IMG/VR virus record: IMGVR_UViG_3300046750_000101
Location: 1-20,117 of that record
Origin: a virus
Reading direction: 5' to 3' (one strand)
Length of the DNA stretch: 20,117 bases
This document shows, one piece after another, positions 3,222 through 8,905 of this stretch; within the stretch, counting starts at the first letter, position 1, and each line of letters begins with the position of its first letter. The notes under the pieces were generated by a model that was given only the letters and a program-made list of their open reading frames with translations, did no database searches and was not told where the DNA came from. A program made the position numbers and the translations under genes.

Positions 3222-3377
3222 ATGAAAGCTACTGTAGGATCGGGTAAAGATATGAGCCCAAAAATCAAGCCAATAGGCAAAAGAAAAATGAAATCAATTA
3301 ATTCAACTATTGATTGTACACTAGAGATTGATAGTCCTGAGTATAAGGGTAATGCTGTATTAAACGCAAATAAATAA
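3222..3377 (+). CDS. Small basic hypothetical protein, 51 aa
   Basis: A short open frame begins at an ATG two bases after the previous stop and ends at TAA 3375-3377, whose last base is also the first base of the next start (TAATG). The 51-residue product begins MKATVGSGKDMSPKIKPIGK, is Lys-rich in its first half, and ends in a more polar segment with one Cys (STIDCTLEID). I do not recognise it. Support for it being real comes from the tight packing on both sides, where otherwise about 155 bases would be non-coding in a region without gaps. Confidence 0.6.
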   Translation: MKATVGSGKDMSPKIKPIGKRKMKSINSTIDCTLEIDSPEYKGNAVLNANK

Positions 3378-3535
3378 TGAACACTTTAGACGATTTAAAA
3401 TTATACTGCTTAAATATAACATCTGCTACTGTCGTAAGTTTAGGATGGTTAGAGCCATTACTATCTGTTTTGCTTCTTCTAACTACAATAGGTTATACTG
3501 CACACAAATGGTATTTAATGCAAAAAGATAAATAA
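3377..3535 (+). CDS. Small membrane protein, possible holin
   Basis: The 52-residue product starts MNTLDDLKLYCLNITSATVV and has a strong hydrophobic stretch LEPLLSVLLLLTTIGYTA at about residues 25-42, preceded by a weaker one at 12-23, and ends with a short basic tail HKWYLMQKDK. That layout, one or two membrane segments with a charged C-terminus in about 50 residues, fits small phage holins, which make holes in the inner membrane at lysis. The amidase gene lies about 300 bases downstream in the same operon, supporting a lysis role. It is coupled on both sides by TAATG overlaps. A second holin-like gene lies at 7873, so this one may instead be an antiholin or an unrelated membrane peptide. 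Confidence 0.6.
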   Translation: MNTLDDLKLYCLNITSATVVSLGWLEPLLSVLLLLTTIGYTAHKWYLMQKDK

Positions 3536-3846
3536 TGGAAGAAAAAATAGATAATTTGTTAGAAAGAAAAGATAATAAGTCTATAGCCAAAATGATTAAG
3601 AAAGTTAAAAATTCTAATTGTGGTTCGCCTAGTAAGGCTTTAGTTTTTCAACCTAAAAATTTAAATCAACATTTGGACACGAAACCACCTAAAAAAGATA
3701 CTGGCTCAAAAGAAGAAGCGAAGGATAAAGGAGAAGTAGTAGACGGAGAAGAGCAATGGGGATTATTTAAAAGCGATAGTGAAAAAGCAGCTCAAGCAGC
3801 TAATATATCTTCATTAAAAGCAGCGGCTAGCGCTATTAAAAAATGA
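3535..3846 (+). CDS. Charged Lys/Glu/Ala-rich protein, 103 aa
   Basis: I do not recognise a domain. The N-terminal part (KIDNLLERKDNKSIAKMIKK) looks helical. The middle is highly charged and probably disordered (KPPKKDTGSKEEAKDKGEVV), and the end is an Ala/Lys-rich helix (SEKAAQAANISSLKAAASAI). It contains a single Cys. It overlaps the upstream membrane-protein stop (TAATG) and the downstream amidase start (ATGA at 3843). Lying between a possible holin gene and the amidase gene, it may be part of the lysis transcript without being a lysis protein itself. Confidence 0.7.
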   Translation: MEEKIDNLLERKDNKSIAKMIKKVKNSNCGSPSKALVFQPKNLNQHLDTKPPKKDTGSKEEAKDKGEVVDGEEQWGLFKSDSEKAAQAANISSLKAAASAIKK

Positions 3847-4256
3847 GAAGTATAAAAGAAATTATAATACACTGTTCTGCTACAAGAGAAGGACAAGACA
3901 TACCAGTTGAAACTATTAAAGACTGGCACGTCAATAGTAGAGGTTGGACGGATATAGGTTACCATTTTTACATAGAACTTGACGGTACAATAAAAAAAGG
4001 AAGAGATATAGATAGATCAGGCGCTCATTGCAAAGGGCACAATCGTAATTCTATAGGAATTTGTTATTGCGGAGGCGTAGAAGCTGACGGTAAGACACCA
4101 AAGGATACTAGAACAGAAGTACAAAAAGAAAGTCTGTTACACGTCCTTAAAACATTAAAGGCGATGTATCCAGATGCTATTATTTATTCACACAACGAGT
4201 TTGCTAACAAGGCATGCCCGTCATTTGATGCAACAGGAGAGTATGAAAATATCTGA
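3843..4256 (+). CDS. N-acetylmuramoyl-L-alanine amidase, T7 lysozyme type
   Basis: This endolysin cuts the bond between N-acetylmuramic acid and the peptide stem of peptidoglycan. The 137-residue protein is a single Amidase_2 domain. Compared with T7 lysozyme, the zinc ligands align as His10 (IIIHCSATREG), His117 (YSHNEFA) and Cys125 (ACPSFD), and the catalytic Tyr and Lys as Tyr40 (IGYHFYI) and Lys123. The segment HNRNSIGICYCGG is the usual core strand. There is no signal peptide or cell-wall binding domain, so it would need a holin to reach the wall. T7 lysozyme also inhibits T7 RNA polymerase; nothing here indicates that function. It overlaps its upstream neighbour (ATGA) and the next gene by 14 bases. 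Confidence 0.95.
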   Translation: MRSIKEIIIHCSATREGQDIPVETIKDWHVNSRGWTDIGYHFYIELDGTIKKGRDIDRSGAHCKGHNRNSIGICYCGGVEADGKTPKDTRTEVQKESLLHVLKTLKAMYPDAIIYSHNEFANKACPSFDATGEYENI

Positions 4257-4638
4257 AAACACAGAATTTAAAATTGATATAAAAACTGTAATTGGGATAA
4301 TAATGTTTACTACTACGATAGTAGGTGTGTATTATACTTTACAAGAAGACATAGCAGAAGCTAAGAAGTTACCACCAGTTGAAGTAGGTAGACTAGAGTA
4401 TGAGCTAAAAGAAAAATGGAATCATGAAAACATTGAAGACATACTTGAAAGAGTCAGCATGCTTGAGCAAGTTGATGATGTTATATTTGAAGAGATAAAT
4501 GTTTTGTCTGGTTTAGTTAAAGATGGAACAGAAAGTGATGGTAAACTACAAGAGCTTCAAAAAAGATTAGAAGATCTGCAAAGAAGAAAACCAACTGTAA
4601 TAGTTAAAGAAGTTCAAACAAGTAAAAAACGTAGATAA
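4243..4638 (+). CDS. Membrane plus coiled-coil protein, possible inner spanin
   Basis: The start is placed at the ATG at 4243, overlapping the amidase end by 14 bases. A longer frame from 4174 would add 23 residues read out of frame through the conserved amidase C-terminus. The 131-residue product has a cytoplasmic-looking N-terminus, one membrane segment at about 12-32 (DIKTVIGIIMFTTTIVGVYY), then a long helical region (about 50-115) with heptad-like Leu/Ile spacing (NIEDILERVSMLEQVDDVIF and ELQKRLEDLQRR), and a basic tail. One N-terminal membrane helix followed by a coiled coil directly after an endolysin gene is the layout of an inner-membrane spanin subunit. No outer-membrane lipoprotein partner is seen nearby, so this is a suggestion only. 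Confidence 0.65.
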   Translation: MKISENTEFKIDIKTVIGIIMFTTTIVGVYYTLQEDIAEAKKLPPVEVGRLEYELKEKWNHENIEDILERVSMLEQVDDVIFEEINVLSGLVKDGTESDGKLQELQKRLEDLQRRKPTVIVKEVQTSKKRR

Positions 4639-4775
4639 TGAATAATATTAAAGCGCCAACAATGTTAAAAATATCCGCATCATGCAAGGCTGCGGCTAAA
4701 AAGAAATTTAAAGTTTATCCTTCGGCATACGCTAATATGTGGGCTTCTAAAACTCAGAAAGCTGGTAAGTGTTAA
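4638..4775 (+). CDS. Small YPSAYAN-motif protein, 45 aa
   Basis: This short gene starts at ATG 4638 within the previous stop (TAATG) and ends TAA at 4773-4775. The product contains SASCKAAAKKKFKVYPSAYA followed by NMWASKTQKAGKC. The motif C.AAA.KKFKVYPSAYAN with a closing Lys/Gly/Cys tail is, to my knowledge, a recurrent small family in marine phages and cyanophages without known function. It is very basic, with two Cys residues that could pair or bind a metal. It lies next to a larger gene with similar Lys/Cys-rich modules. Confidence 0.75.
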   Translation: MNNIKAPTMLKISASCKAAAKKKFKVYPSAYANMWASKTQKAGKC

Positions 4776-4778
4776 ATT

Positions 4779-5423
4779 ATGGAATCTCCATTTTTAAATA
4801 TTAATAGTCCGGTTAATTGCTGGAAAGGATTTTCAAGAGTGCCTGGCACAGCCAAAGGTGCTAAGGGTAGTTGTAAAAAATCTCCTGCAACCAAGAAACA
4901 AACTGGTGGTGGAACTAAAAAAGTATGCTTGCCTTTAGCTAAAATTAGAAGTATGAGTAGCAGTGAAAAATCATCTGTTATAAACGCTAAAAGATCTGCT
5001 GGAGCAAAAGGTAAATATAAAAGATCTAGCAAGAGTAATGTTACTGGTACTAAAAGTAACGGGTTAAGAGATTGGGTAAAACAAGACTGGAGACAAGTAG
5101 CTAATCCTAGTTTAAAGTGTGGTGAAAAAGCACCTACTACAAAGAAAGGCGATGTTAAAAGAACTATTGGTAGAGGTAAAAACTTTAACAAAGCTAATGA
5201 CAAGGGTACTGGCGCCGCTGCTGGTGGCGGTATGACACAGAAAGGTGTTGACGAGTACAAAAGAAAAAATCCTGATAGTAAGCTTACGACAGCTGTAACC
5301 ACTCCACCATCTAAATTGAAAAAAGGTGGTAAAAAATGGAAAAAAAGAAAAGCTTTTTGCGCTAGATCAAAGTCATGGAAAAGTAAAAGAGGTTTAGCTG
5401 CTAGACGTAGATGGAATTGCTAA
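4779..5423 (+). CDS. Lys/Arg- and Cys-rich multi-module phage protein, 214 aa
   Basis: Three modules familiar from marine phage hypothetical proteins follow each other. At 12-34 is CWKGFSRVPGT..GAKGSC. At about 48-116 is KKVCLPLAKIRSMSSSEKSS, KRSAGAKGKYKRSSKS and a LRDWVKQDWRQVANP segment ending KCGE. At about 150-214 is GMTQKGVDEYKRKNPDSKL, then KKRKAFCARSKSW and the terminal GLAARRRWNC. The last resembles the family often annotated DUF6321. None has an established function as far as I know. The protein is strongly basic with seven or so Cys residues, which would suit DNA binding or packaging inside the virion, but this is inference. The next gene starts inside its stop (TAATG). Confidence 0.8.
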   Translation: MESPFLNINSPVNCWKGFSRVPGTAKGAKGSCKKSPATKKQTGGGTKKVCLPLAKIRSMSSSEKSSVINAKRSAGAKGKYKRSSKSNVTGTKSNGLRDWVKQDWRQVANPSLKCGEKAPTTKKGDVKRTIGRGKNFNKANDKGTGAAAGGGMTQKGVDEYKRKNPDSKLTTAVTTPPSKLKKGGKKWKKRKAFCARSKSWKSKRGLAARRRWNC

Positions 5424-5569
5424 TGAGAGATAAAGGTTTAGGCGATACTGTAGCTAGGTTTACAGAGGCCACAGGAATAAAAAAACTAACAGAAAGTATA
5501 ATGCCAGGTTGTGGTTGCAAAAATAGGCAAAACAAATTGAACGAATATTTTCCATATAATAAAAAATAA
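5423..5569 (+). CDS. Small CGC-motif phage protein, 48 aa
   Basis: The gene begins in the previous stop (TAATG) and ends TAA at 5567-5569. The product is MRDKGLGDTVARFTEATGIK, then KLTESIMPGCGCKNRQNKLN, then EYFPYNKK. I recognise this as a common small protein in marine phages with the pattern GLGDT....T.ATGIKK......GCGC..R...LN..FPY. Function is unknown. The adjacent Cys30 and Cys32 are invariant in the versions I recall. It belongs to the cluster of small basic proteins at 4638-7873. Confidence 0.8.
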   Translation: MRDKGLGDTVARFTEATGIKKLTESIMPGCGCKNRQNKLNEYFPYNKK

Positions 5570-5570
5570 A

Positions 5571-5774
5571 ATGGCTAAAGAATTTCCAGAAGTAAAAGAA
5601 AAAAATAAAGGCAAATTTACTAGATGGGTAAAAAGAAATATGCCTGGAAAAAATACTTGTAGTGCTGCTTCTACAATAATGAAAAATACTAAAAAGTATG
5701 ATGAAGATGTAGTTAAGATGGCTAACTATGCTAATAACTTTGGATGTAGCAGCAAGAATAAAAAAGACAAATAA
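5571..5774 (+). CDS. Small basic protein with CSAAS motif, 67 aa
   Basis: The 67-residue product has the core GKFTRWVKRNMPGKNTCSAA followed by STIMKNTKKYDEDVVKMANY and ANNFGC. This is a recognisable small marine phage family of unknown function. It is Lys-rich, with two Cys residues (positions 30 and 59) and a short Lys-rich tail. The ATG at 5571 lies one base after the previous stop, and the next gene starts in its own stop (TAATG at 5772-5776). No membrane segment is present. Its neighbours suggest a set of small proteins made together. Confidence 0.8.
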   Translation: MAKEFPEVKEKNKGKFTRWVKRNMPGKNTCSAASTIMKNTKKYDEDVVKMANYANNFGCSSKNKKDK

Positions 5775-6136
5775 TGGCATTTAAAATAAAGCCACCTTAT
5801 AAAATAGACAATACACCTAGGTATCACAAAAAAGAAGAACCTGGTGTTTTAGGTAGAGCAAACAAAAACGGTACTATAGTAATGAATATGGATATTACTG
5901 ACGCCAAACAACTAAAAGAAGTTGATGATCATGAAATGGTACATGTTGAACAATTTAAAGATTTTGAAAAGTCTGATGGAAACAAAGGGCTAAACTACAC
6001 TGACGATAGTGTTACTTGGCAAGGGGAAACTTATCCAAGAAAAAATGGAAAAATAAAATACAAAGGAACTTGGAAAGTTGAAGGACATCCTAGCTTCCCT
6101 TGGGAACAAGAAGCATATAAAACAAACAAAAAATAA
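5774..6136 (+). CDS. Small HExxH putative zinc metalloprotein, 120 aa
   Basis: Residues 53-57 are HEMVH within VDDHEMVHVEQFKDF, a clear HExxH zinc motif on a predicted helix. A downstream segment GHPSFPWEQEAY (104-115) supplies Glu111 or Glu113 as a plausible third zinc ligand, the gluzincin-like arrangement with a short spacing. The N-terminal part (GTIVMNMDITDAKQLKEV) looks like an edge strand before the helix. The size, about 120 residues, is that of a minimal metallopeptidase domain. It could be a phage protease acting on a virion or host protein, or an inactive structural relative. The start overlaps the previous stop (TAATG). The N-terminus MAFKIKPPYK resembles MAFKLPSKK of the gene at 7265. 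Confidence 0.65.
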   Translation: MAFKIKPPYKIDNTPRYHKKEEPGVLGRANKNGTIVMNMDITDAKQLKEVDDHEMVHVEQFKDFEKSDGNKGLNYTDDSVTWQGETYPRKNGKIKYKGTWKVEGHPSFPWEQEAYKTNKK

Positions 6137-6140
6137 AACA

Positions 6141-7262
6141 ATGGCATATTCACCAGCAAAAAAAACCGACAGATCAAACGAAGGAAACACAAGCGGTTCA
6201 GATGATACAAAAGGAAGCGCGTCTACTCCAGCTTCTGAAATGAACAAAAAAGGAAAAAACGACGACAAAGCAACAAAAGTCTTTGATCCTAAAACAGGTA
6301 GGGCAATTACAAAACCTGCAGTAAAGGTTGATGCAAATACAAAACCTAAAGACGTAGTTAAGCCAAAACCTAAAGGTGGAACTTACGCTAGTGCTAAGAA
6401 AAAAGATCCTAAATTAGATTCTTATATTAAAGCTAGAAATAGCGCTAAAAAAGGTAGTTCAGATTATAATGCTGCTCAAAACAAAATTAACGCAGCTTAC
6501 GGTAAAGGCACTACGAAAAGAAAAGTTACAGTAGCAGATGGCACAAAAACATCTACAGGTGTAATGGCTCCAAAAGCTGAAACTAAAACTAAAGCAGAAA
6601 AAATAACAGATACTGGAATACCAAAAGATGTTAAAGCTCCTAAGCCTAAAACAGCTATGGAAAAAGCAAAAGAAGCTATCGCTTCTGGAGATAAAAAAGC
6701 TGCTAAAAAATCTGGTTTAAAAGGTAAAACTAAAAGAGTTGCTAAAAGACTTGCAAAAGGAGTTGATAAAGCAAAGAAAAAAGCTACTAAAGAAAAACAA
6801 TTAGCAGAATTAAAAAGTGCAGCATCTCCAACTACTTTTAAATCTTTTGACCAAATGGATTCTAAAAACGATATGGCTACTGCAGGCGAAGGTCCTGTGG
6901 AAATGAAAGCACCTATGGAAATGAAAACTTCTCCTATAAATTACTTTAAACAGTCTATTAAGTATGATATAAAAGAAGCTTCAAACTCTAATTTATCTGC
7001 ATCAGCTAGAAAGCATTATTCAAGAAATGCAGAAGCAGATGTAAAGTCAATGAGTAAAATGGGTGGCAAAACTATGGCTTATAAATTTGGTGCTATGAAA
7101 GGTGATCAATCAGCTTCTAAAATAGACTATGCTAACTACAAAGGAACTGATAAAGGTTATAAAGGTAAAACAGGCTCTTCTCATGGAGATCAGTCAGCTA
7201 CACGTAGAGATTATGCTGGTAAAAAAGGTGGATCTATTCTTTCTAAACACATGAAATCATAA
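6141..7262 (+). CDS. Long Lys/Ala-rich disordered protein, 373 aa
   Basis: The start is placed at ATG 6141 (MAYSPAKK), four bases after the previous stop. The frame is open from 6078, but that extension would overlap the conserved end of the upstream gene. The protein is rich in Lys, Ala, Thr and Ser with very few aromatic residues, and reads as disordered over most of its length (for example KDVVKPKPKGGTYASAKKKD and KKSGLKGKTKRVAKRLAKGV, which is histone-tail-like). Near the C-terminus a unit is repeated: GDQSASKIDYA and GDQSATRRDYA, encoded around 7100 and 7185. No known domain is recognised. A virion-internal or DNA-associated role is possible from composition only. Confidence 0.75.
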   Translation: MAYSPAKKTDRSNEGNTSGSDDTKGSASTPASEMNKKGKNDDKATKVFDPKTGRAITKPAVKVDANTKPKDVVKPKPKGGTYASAKKKDPKLDSYIKARNSAKKGSSDYNAAQNKINAAYGKGTTKRKVTVADGTKTSTGVMAPKAETKTKAEKITDTGIPKDVKAPKPKTAMEKAKEAIASGDKKAAKKSGLKGKTKRVAKRLAKGVDKAKKKATKEKQLAELKSAASPTTFKSFDQMDSKNDMATAGEGPVEMKAPMEMKTSPINYFKQSIKYDIKEASNSNLSASARKHYSRNAEADVKSMSKMGGKTMAYKFGAMKGDQSASKIDYANYKGTDKGYKGKTGSSHGDQSATRRDYAGKKGGSILSKHMKS

Positions 7263-7264
7263 TT

Positions 7265-7873
7265 ATGGCTTTTAAATTACCTTCAAAAAAAGTAAATCCA
7301 TTAAAAAGTAAAGGGCTCTTGAATAAGGGTCCTTTTAAAGCTAATGGTAATACAATGGCTTACAATAATGGAGAGCCAAAGATTGAAAAAACAATGAATG
7401 CAGTGGCTAGACCAAGTTATGATGCTGACTCTGTTAAAGCAAACAAAGAGGTAAGAACTAAAGAGTTTAACGAAACTCCTGAAGGAAGAATAATGGCAGA
7501 TAGAGTTAATTTACTATCAGGAAAGATGCGTACACAATCAGGACAAACAAGCGGACCTAATAAAGGTAAATTTTACTATACAGACGAATCAAAAGAACCT
7601 GGTTACCAAACTGTATATTTTAGTAAAGAGGATTATAAAAAAGCAGCAGATGATTATGCAAAAGCTAAGTATCAATTTTCTGTGCCTAGAAATAAAGCTA
7701 TGAAAGAGAAGCATGGTGATGTAGCTTCGTACACTGATACAGAAACTGATGAGGTTCAAAACTATGGAGAGTCTTATAAAATGGCTGGAGGAGATGCATT
7801 TGAAAATGTAGGTAAAGCTAAGGTCGAAGTAGATAGACCAAATCCTTCAAACAACATAGTTAACAAAGAGTAA
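7265..7873 (+). CDS. Hypothetical Lys-rich protein, 202 aa
   Basis: I do not recognise a domain. The N-terminal 35 residues are basic (MAFKLPSKKVNPLKSKGLLN followed by KGPFKANGNTMAYNNGEP). The centre (about 75-140) is more ordered, with GRIMADRVNLLSGKMRTQSG and a SKEDYKKAADDYAKAKYQFS helix. The C-terminus is acidic and polar. The N-terminus shares the MAFK start with the gene at 5774 and the TMAY tetrapeptide with the gene at 6141, which may be a common tag or a trace of duplication. The following gene begins inside its stop (TAATG at 7871-7875). Confidence 0.75.
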   Translation: MAFKLPSKKVNPLKSKGLLNKGPFKANGNTMAYNNGEPKIEKTMNAVARPSYDADSVKANKEVRTKEFNETPEGRIMADRVNLLSGKMRTQSGQTSGPNKGKFYYTDESKEPGYQTVYFSKEDYKKAADDYAKAKYQFSVPRNKAMKEKHGDVASYTDTETDEVQNYGESYKMAGGDAFENVGKAKVEVDRPNPSNNIVNKE

Positions 7874-8325
7874 TGTCTGAAAAGAAAACTTTTAAAGAAA
7901 CAAAAATAGGAGCTTTTTTATCTAGTAAAGCTCCTAAAGTTTTAGCGGCGCTAGGTGATGTGTTGCCTAATCAAGGAACTCTTGGAGTAGTAAAAAACCT
8001 TATAACAAGTGATAATAAGATCAAGGCAGTAGATAAGGAGCAGGCTATGAAGCTTATAGAACAAGATATTGCTGAGATGAAAGAAGTGTCTAGTAGATGG
8101 AGAAGCGATATGAAAAGTGATTCATGGCTTTCTAAAAACACTAGGCCTTTAGCTCTTATATTTTTAACTGCTTCAGCTGTATTTATGATGGCCGTAGACT
8201 CTTTCCATTTGCAGTTTGACGTTGACGAAGCTTGGATAAACTTATTAAAAACATTACTGGTAACAGTTTATGTAGCCTACTTCGGAAGTCGTGGTGCTGA
8301 AAAAATAACAAAAATAAATAAATAA
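7873..8325 (+). CDS. Holin-like membrane protein (GTA 3TM-holin type)
   Basis: The 150-residue product has an amphipathic, mostly charged N-terminal region (FKETKIGAFLSSKAPKVLAA, GTLGVVKNLI), a conserved helix KLIEQDIAEMKEVSSRWRSD, then SWLSKNTRPL leading to a first membrane segment (about 92-108) and a second one at about 119-138 (WINLLKTLLVTVYVAYFG), ending in SRGAEKITK. The pattern of a helix with E....R...D, an xRPL segment and two or three hydrophobic helices matches the holin family known from gene transfer agents and marine phages. Holins permit endolysin release and set lysis timing. It lies about 3.6 kb downstream of the amidase gene, so the lysis genes are spread out. Confidence 0.75.
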   Translation: MSEKKTFKETKIGAFLSSKAPKVLAALGDVLPNQGTLGVVKNLITSDNKIKAVDKEQAMKLIEQDIAEMKEVSSRWRSDMKSDSWLSKNTRPLALIFLTASAVFMMAVDSFHLQFDVDEAWINLLKTLLVTVYVAYFGSRGAEKITKINK

Positions 8326-8326
8326 A

Positions 8327-8905
8327 ATGGCGGAATATAACGAATGGGAACCTGTTTTGGGTCCCGTAAATGGATTAATGCAACAAGAGCCTAGAGTTTT
8401 TGGTCACGACGCTTTAGCTTTAACAGCTGCAGCACTTCAAGGAGCACTTACCGTAACAAATGGTGGTAGTGGTTTTGACTCTTCTGATATTGGTGACACT
8501 GTAGCTCAATCAGGAGCTAGTGCCCCTTCAGGTGGATCTGGTGCTACGTTTAATATAACAGAAGTGACAGGTGGTGCTGTTACAGGGGTTGAGCTTACTA
8601 GTTCAGCTACAGGTGGAACTGGATATGCAAAAGACATGGTAGTAACTTTAGCTGCAGCAGCTTCAGGTGGTAGTGGTTGTCAAATCACAGTTAGTGCAAC
8701 TGGAGCAAATATACCCAATACAGGTAAAAGAGGAGCTGTTGTATACAATGGTAAAGCAACAACGGCACAAGATATTACAATAGTAACTGAAGCTGGTCGC
8801 GAAGTTCAATTTAAAAGTGTACAACCAGGCACGGTTGTAGGGCACAAAGCACCTATGTTAGCAAAAAAATTAGTTACCGGTACAGACTGTGTAGCTATAT
8901 ATTAA
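8327..8905 (+). CDS. Gly/Ser-rich virion protein with inserted repeat module
   Basis: The N-terminal 40 residues (NEWEPVLGPVNGLMQQEPRV) and the C-terminal part from about 130 (KRGAVVYNGKATTAQDITIV then VQPGTVVGHKAPMLAKKLVT and DCVAIY) together resemble small capsid-decoration or surface proteins of marine phages, with a beta-rich pattern and an ending of the form tgtdavAlY. Between them, residues 42-126 are a Gly-Ser-rich stretch with repeated GGSG and GTGY motifs (TNGGSGFDSSDIGD, SGGSGATFNI, GGTGYAKDMV, SGGSGCQITV), likely a beta-structured insert. A similar module lies in the gene at 19212. The role as a head-decoration protein is inferred from pattern and location near the packaging genes. 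Confidence 0.7.
   Translation: MAEYNEWEPVLGPVNGLMQQEPRVFGHDALALTAAALQGALTVTNGGSGFDSSDIGDTVAQSGASAPSGGSGATFNITEVTGGAVTGVELTSSATGGTGYAKDMVVTLAAAASGGSGCQITVSATGANIPNTGKRGAVVYNGKATTAQDITIVTEAGREVQFKSVQPGTVVGHKAPMLAKKLVTGTDCVAIY

Follow-up and report, generated by a model that had tools for sequence, protein, structure and literature searches.

Tlr6F (DUF5754, PF19058) is a small and widely conserved protein of unexplained function; it is described from nearly all Polinton-like viruses, several virophages, many giant viruses and some phages (PMC4642659). Ascovirus P64 is described as a DNA-condensing virion protein with 2-cysteine adaptor domains, whose condensing power lies mainly in the basic C-terminal half (PMC6163548). 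A further family, DUF6321 or T4-GC 119, forms one protein of 400–500 residues between terS and terL in cyanophages. Here, we analyze seven open reading frames (ORFs), o1–o7, at positions 4638–7873 of a stretch of 20117 bases from a tailed phage (IMG/VR record IMGVR_UViG_3300046750_000101; the whole stretch is referred to as the window). Sequence comparison shows that the two-Cys modules of o1–o4 are mobile between phages, occur alone or fused, cluster with each other and keep or lose their Cys as pairs.

Seven adjacent genes and their closest relatives

The seven ORFs, with the three modules of o2, are as follows.

4638..4775, + strand: o1, 45 residues, one Cys pair flanking PSAYAN (phrog_27331, PHROG E 4.1e-12)
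4779..5423, + strand: o2, 214 residues, three consecutive two-Cys modules, which are separate ORFs in loci L006, L081, L091 and L072
4818..4874, + strand: module N of o2 (o2N), CWKG...GSC, recognized in the sequence; a like motif is standalone in L087-L089
4884..5129, + strand: module M of o2 (o2M), VCLP...LRDW...KCG (module hidden Markov model (HMM), independent E-value (iE) 3.1e-38, the model including the window sequence); standalone in L081 and L091
5187..5420, + strand: module C of o2 (o2C), DUF6321-like, FCARS...WNC (module HMM iE 2.1e-27, the model again including the window sequence)
5423..5569, + strand: o3, 48 residues, GLGDT...CGC...R...LN (phrog_32048, PHROG E 1.1e-6)
5571..5774, + strand: o4, 67 residues, one Cys pair, three predicted helices (AlphaFold (AF2) predicted local distance difference test score (pLDDT) 74)
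5774..6136, + strand: o5, 120 residues, HExxH and WExE motifs, a predicted small zinc metallopeptidase, IrrE/SprT-like
6141..7262, + strand: o6, 373 residues, Lys-rich, Cys-free, fast-evolving (ratio of nonsynonymous to synonymous substitution rates (dN/dS) 0.42-0.44)
7265..7873, + strand: o7, 202 residues, Cys-free, fast-evolving (dN/dS 0.36 and 0.81)

All seven are contiguous on the same strand within the lysis region, in agreement with a preliminary description of this DNA, and their starts and stops touch or overlap. The adjacency of these genes exceeds chance. Sigma-70-like promoters between positions 3500 and 9500 number 14, against a shuffle mean of 19.4, and so are not commoner than in shuffled sequence; touching ORFs and promoter count are compatible with a single transcription unit.

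The preliminary description had taken the products mainly for small, very basic proteins, several of them with Cys motifs, and had treated all seven as one class. The computed isoelectric points of o1–o7 are 10.2, 10.9, 9.6, 9.9, 8.9, 10.0 and 9.2, and the Cys motifs quoted for o1–o4 are real, with 2, 6, 2 and 2 Cys in these four proteins. The isoelectric points span 8.9-10.9; o5–o7 have no Cys. Nor do the seven form one class: o5 is a predicted zincin that had been missed, while o6 and o7 are Cys-free and evolve fast. Compared with L086, dN/dS is 0.04, 0.10, 0.06, 0.12, 0.06, 0.44 and 0.36 for o1–o7; compared with L085, it is 0.06, 0.13, 0.08, 0.28, 0.04, 0.42 and 0.81. Purifying selection acts on o1–o5, and far less on o6 and o7. 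No Pfam family matches o6 at E up to 1, and its PHROG match is weak (E 0.2).

Among the described families, DUF6321 is closest to o2C; the C-terminal ends of its cyanophage members align with the whole of o2C (60% identity for P-TIM68 and 45% for S-N03). Against Pfam PF19846 (DUF6321), o2C reaches E 7.4e-6 and 27 bits, below the 28.5-bit gathering cut-off, which is passed by L070 (35.1 bits) and S-SM1 (79.6 bits). The window row nevertheless has the invariant columns of the DUF6321 alignment, including C57, R59 and W75; C77 is nearly invariant. Where the cyanophages have one long protein between the terminase genes, the window encodes small individual proteins within a lysis slot.

Tlr6F is basic and has paired Cys like the modules, and in relatives it takes the same slot (14/86); however, it is a sequence family distinct from o1–o4 and is absent from the window. 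DUF5872 (PF19197) shows a weak likeness to the o1 family only, matching three of seven members (best E 9.4e-4), and the window o1 itself gives no match. The comparison with P64 concerns how the proteins would work: P64 also has repeated two-Cys virus-specific units and strong basic charge, but it carries Arg/Ser repeats instead of Lys-rich modules and belongs to a eukaryotic virus. No match to 2C_adapt (PF08793) was found in o1–o7 by Pfam at E up to 1; a genome search for this domain gave no match either, but neither did its controls. By analogy, P64 suggests that a two-Cys and basic design can serve DNA condensation.

The module families are o1, o2M, o2C, o3 and o4, with Tlr6F/DUF5754, FACRF (DUF6321-like), CWKGYV and FCGP as swap partners. 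In the two-Cys families, Lys plus Arg make up 21-36% and Asp plus Glu 3-11%, versus 13% and 13% for comparison. Two of the o2 modules are joined in L025, and an o2N-type motif is seen by eye inside S-SM1 SSM1_115. A homologue of o3 is present in the Manatee Spring phage MW202828; none was found in elemo 6-9C or phi38:1. The o4 model puts Cys30 where one helix begins and Cys59 where the following helix ends, so that a bridge linking the two antiparallel helices would be possible. Foldseek returned no match to the o4 fold better than E 6.6.

Paired cysteines and shared neighbourhoods

Across seven aligned module families, there is no sequence with one Cys of the pair and another residue at the partner column. 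The numbers with both, a single or neither Cys are 61/0/75 for o1, 153/0/1 for o2C, 33/0/0 for o2M, 146/0/0 for o3, 70/0/0 for o4 (unique sequences), 27/0/7 for Tlr6F-like and 150/0/15 for FACRF, rows with a gap being left out (4 of o2C, 16 of o2M, 1 of Tlr6F-like, 5 of FACRF, and 0 of o1, o3 and o4). Many of the 75 o1 rows with neither Cys hold the pair in another register. Measured from PSAY in 81 unique o1 sequence windows cut at +12, the Cys are located at -12/+11 in 27, at -15/+12 in 26 and at -11/+11 in 1; 19 have no Cys, and 8 have -12 alone. The partner Cys is at +17 in all 14 of the 14 loci with the window's type of o1. In o1, then, the two Cys change register together. Tlr6F-like sequences (n=35) contain 0, 2, 4 or 6 Cys and never an odd number.

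For comparison, 310 of the 503 small non-module genes in the first locus sets lack Cys, and 44 have exactly two. Control families with variable Cys mostly contain many single-Cys sequences. Zero singles also occur in an invariant pair of the amidase, 17/136 (both Cys in 41 sequences, a single one in 0), and in two small pairs of g8327, the gene after the holin (3 and 2 sequences). The modules are not alone in having zero singles, but the combination with many double losses is unusual. The paired Cys of one module may form a disulfide or a common metal site.

The modules are also neighbours. With o5 counted as a module, a second module lies within 2.5 kilobases (kb) of the seed at 46/79 loci for o2C, 71/78 for o4, 52/80 for o1 and 48/77 for o3. 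Without loci that carry a window-clade core gene, the counts become 25/56, 5/5, 48/76 and 5/23, respectively, a ‘non-kin’ locus being merely one with no such gene in the fetched stretch. At o1-seeded non-kin loci, o2C is found 33 times near (within 2.5 kb) versus 4 times far, and o2M 13 versus 0. On these neighbour counts, o1, o2C, o2M and Tlr6F travel together widely, and o3, o4 and o5 mainly stay in the window clade.

Fusions combine o2M with o2C (9), o1 with o2C (4) and o2M with o1 (1), the window being counted twice, as L001 and as itself. The 495-residue SSM1_115 of S-SM1 (T4-GC 119) holds an o1 module (iE 1.6e-17) and DUF6321 (79.6 bits) in one protein, and CWKGY and LRDW..C motifs are visible by eye. 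The DUF6321 protein is encoded between terS and terL in cyanophages S-SM1, P-TIM68, S-N03 and S-RIM2; the S-SM1 interval holds other genes besides SSM1_115, and the P-TIM68 protein matches 507 phage records. In MED4-184, a Tlr6F-like gene is flanked by the major head gene and one for head morphogenesis, and pelagiphage HTVC106P groups Tlr6F-like, o1 and o2M-like genes beside its endolysin. The earlier proposal that the genes act together gains support, since modules are neighbours in unrelated phages and are fused in S-SM1 and in o2; for the same reason, the families are not distributed independently of each other.

Several observations concern individual module relatives. The o2M-like proteins at L415 6916-7164 and L096 8611-8847 look circularly permuted relative to the window o2M. 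Halves of o2M-like proteins match the model separately and weakly, with iE 0.026 and 0.037 in HTVC106P and 1.8 and 0.28 in C75C1. The Pfam scan for Tlr6F/DUF5754 matched 4 of 10 slot members at E up to 1 (best E 2.2e-11), and the first Tlr6F-like protein scanned gave a sub-threshold match (E 0.062). Roseophage SIO1 has a Tlr6F-like frame with a Cys pair where no feature is annotated (NC_002519 24065-24310; L414 5998-6246). Small virion proteins of P-SS2 were considered as module carriers and set aside, as none of nine small ORFs read within the first 20 kb, ORF009 (6004-6192) included, shows a module by eye.

In the window-clade loci, the modules lie in one place, whose edges and upstream neighbour are listed here.

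3843..4256, + strand: endolysin (N-acetylmuramoyl-L-alanine amidase), upstream neighbour (PHROG phrog_822, E 3.7e-59)
4246..4638, + strand: i-spanin-like gene, upstream edge; an N-terminal membrane segment followed by a coiled coil, with a weak PHROG match to an Rz-like spanin (E 0.17)
7873..8325, + strand: holin, downstream edge (PHROG phrog_3427, E 4.8e-20)

Gene order places o1–o7 in an exchangeable slot between the i-spanin-like gene and the holin. The 86 window-clade loci that span this slot hold 190 two-Cys modules inside it and 0 outside, the slot taking up 438 kb of 1055 kb; most of these loci were fetched with module queries as bait. As a bait-free control, 16 slot-spanning loci were fetched by terminase (TerL): 12 have a two-Cys module, 15 have o5 and none has a module outside. 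We count 37 module arrangements across the 86 slots, which hold o3 in 71, o5 in 71, o4 in 38, o2C in 25, FACRF in 16, o1 in 14, Tlr6F-like genes in 14 and o2M in 12.

Candidate functions of the modules and of o5

We tentatively favor the reading that o1–o4 constitute an exchangeable cassette of Lys/Arg-rich two-Cys modules among lysis and structural genes, that they are most likely minor virion or packaging-associated nucleic-acid-binding proteins, and that o5 processes a late or host protein. A role in the virion or in packaging is suggested by position, by positive charge, by packaging and head neighbours, and by clustering with relatives of phi38:1 gp080. This Lys-rich protein is labelled structural; of the 11 matches to it, a number that includes gp080 itself, 7 have a two-Cys module at most 2.5 kb away. 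According to the note in its record, the label rests on similarity, and proteomics is said to lie behind it. S-CBS2 gp045, a relative of gp080 (42% identity, E 8e-12), adjoins a Tlr6F-like gene.

We speculate on the following mechanism. The cassette genes would be expressed late, and within each module the two Cys would either be joined by an intramolecular disulfide or form a single metal site. Reduced in the cytoplasm, the modules would remain loose as well as basic and could bind phage nucleic acid or components of the packaging machinery or head; in the released particle, a disulfide would lock them. From such behaviour, loose and basic and then locked, a nucleic-acid-binding job in the virion or in packaging would follow. 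The o5 protein would process one late protein or a host protein, and o6 and o7 probably stand outside the core function. The suggestion in the preliminary description of DNA-condensing or internal virion proteins is plausible on indirect grounds.

Several points weigh against the virion or packaging role. No module was found in the virion data examined. The slot of the window clade is in the lysis region and not in the head region. Neither gp069 nor gp080 of phi38:1 is a homologue of o1–o7 (no match in L004). The DUF6321 protein of S-RIM2 has no structural label, whereas two of its neighbours are labelled structural, and among the matches listed to the P-TIM68 protein (60 of 507) no structural label occurs. 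Kinship among the sequences inflates the Cys-pair counts, which are not independent, and the pair is dispensable in places, being missing from the 19 of 81 o1 sequence windows and from some members of other families.

Regarding the virion data themselves, the S-SM1 study reports 41 proteins by virion mass spectrometry (PMC3037559). The GenBank labels of S-SM1 were ruled out as a stand-in for virion detection, because GC969, although detected, bears a hypothetical label. The methylated virion proteins of phi38:1 were uninformative; that list is confined to methylated proteins and names GroEL and the capsid protein alone.

The predicted zincin bears on a second explanation. In o5, the motifs read HEMVH and WEQEAY, and H53, E54, H57, W110, E111 and E113 are invariant in 25/25 sequences, an alignment of 25 of the 33 family members. 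The AlphaFold model has a mean pLDDT of 87. Its top VIA rows are zincins, with IrrE/PprI best (Z 6.3), followed by SprT-type DNA-protein crosslink proteases, abylysin, Wss1 and ArdC. Foldseek against PDB gave a best E of 0.35, which is not significant; against BFVD, the best match (E 2.7e-8) is uncharacterised and the best functionally named one is SprT-like (E 5.8e-3). Sequence searches yielded nothing meaningful in PDB and no family match in Pfam. One phage protein related to o5 is labelled an ImmA/IrrE metallopeptidase, and the o5 profile, run without a positive control, gave no match to three named relatives (MW202828, elemo 6-9C and phi38:1). Like the IrrE/ImmA, SprT, Wss1 and ArdC zincins, which give the best model alignments (Z <= 6.3), o5 has HExxH and an invariant downstream Glu; unlike them, it is shorter and has no Pfam family, and the middling Z points to a fold class, not a family. 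We regard o5 as a predicted small zincin.

The presence of IrrE/PprI and the antirestriction protein ArdC among these fold rows, together with the 37 arrangements in 86 slots and the fast evolution of o6 and o7, would fit a counter-defence or host-takeover cassette, in which hypervariable and swappable small proteins and an IrrE/ArdC-like zincin are expressed or injected to disarm the host. We consider this unlikely: the position among lysis genes here and beside packaging and head genes elsewhere suggests late expression, o1–o5 are under purifying selection, and the phages that carry modules infect very different hosts (cyanobacteria, Pelagibacter and Roseobacter).

Phage-encoded cationic lysis peptides are membrane-active and required for lysis. 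The modules might likewise assist lysis as cationic, envelope-disturbing proteins, for their place in the window clade is between the i-spanin-like gene and the holin, and for o1-seeded loci the median distance is 621 bases to an M15 endolysin (11/80 loci) and 756 bases to phrog_2524, a holin-like gene without a name in PHROGs (23/80). The same modules, however, stand in packaging or head operons of cyanophages and MED4-184 and within proteins of 430-500 residues; by eye, they show neither a signal nor a membrane segment, and a spanin-like gene is already there, which makes this explanation rather improbable. Least likely of the alternatives is a permissive insertion site gathering unrelated small genes with no common function: other genes are taken up too, such as one in L025 that by eye is methyltransferase-like, but the same families come together in one polypeptide and at loci lacking a window-clade core gene, and 190 modules fall within the slot and 0 outside.

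The phage, its other genes and the meaning of the modules

The window terminase is 65% identical to that of the Manatee Spring podovirus MW202828 and ~44% identical to those of Flavobacterium elemo phages, and Cellulophaga phages are also among the 87 matching records. The capsid protein shows the same kinships. Many of the 26 genome-collection matches are titled marine Bacteroidota, and others are evidently mis-binned. Owing to these kinships and titles, the host of the phage is likely flavobacterial. No phage near-identical to the window was found in GenBank. Judging from their titles, contigs L422, L425, L428, L434, L435 and L440 of the same phage group, which sit in archaeal metagenome-assembled genomes, are evidently mis-binned.

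The i-spanin-like assignment of 4246..4638, a gene present in 13 loci of the first locus set, is weakly indicated, mainly by sequence anatomy and position. GroEL and GroES genes occupy 630-2434 of the window and likewise lie upstream of the slot in relatives. A 51-residue family (..YKGNAVLNA..) at 3222-3377 has the same spot upstream of the endolysin in 10 loci. After the holin, 8327-8905 encodes a small acidic protein, whose C-terminal end is common to variable neighbours in relatives; a protein in a similar position in L221 matches a tail fibre PHROG, and in L025 the methyltransferase-like gene (8138-8701) follows a g8327 relative.

A far broader idea would extend the two-Cys modules beyond phages. 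Marine phages, Polinton-like viruses and giant viruses might share redox-switched, protamine-like two-Cys modules, shuffled like beads, that are loose at packaging, disulfide-locked at sea, and reduced on entry to release the genome. We hold this to be very improbable.

New in this analysis are the Cys pairs kept or lost as units, the shuffling of modules with Tlr6F and DUF6321, and the zincin o5. DUF6321, DUF5754/Tlr6F, the DUF5872-like family and the GLGDT..CGC family are found side by side, fused or exchanged for each other, and share one signature, a Cys pair kept or lost as a unit; the consulted portions of the literature on DUF5754, DUF5872, DUF6321, Tlr6F and small basic virion proteins contain no such link. 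Several separate viral unknowns become one testable question, and Tlr6F, unexplained in eukaryotic DNA viruses, gains a tractable phage setting.

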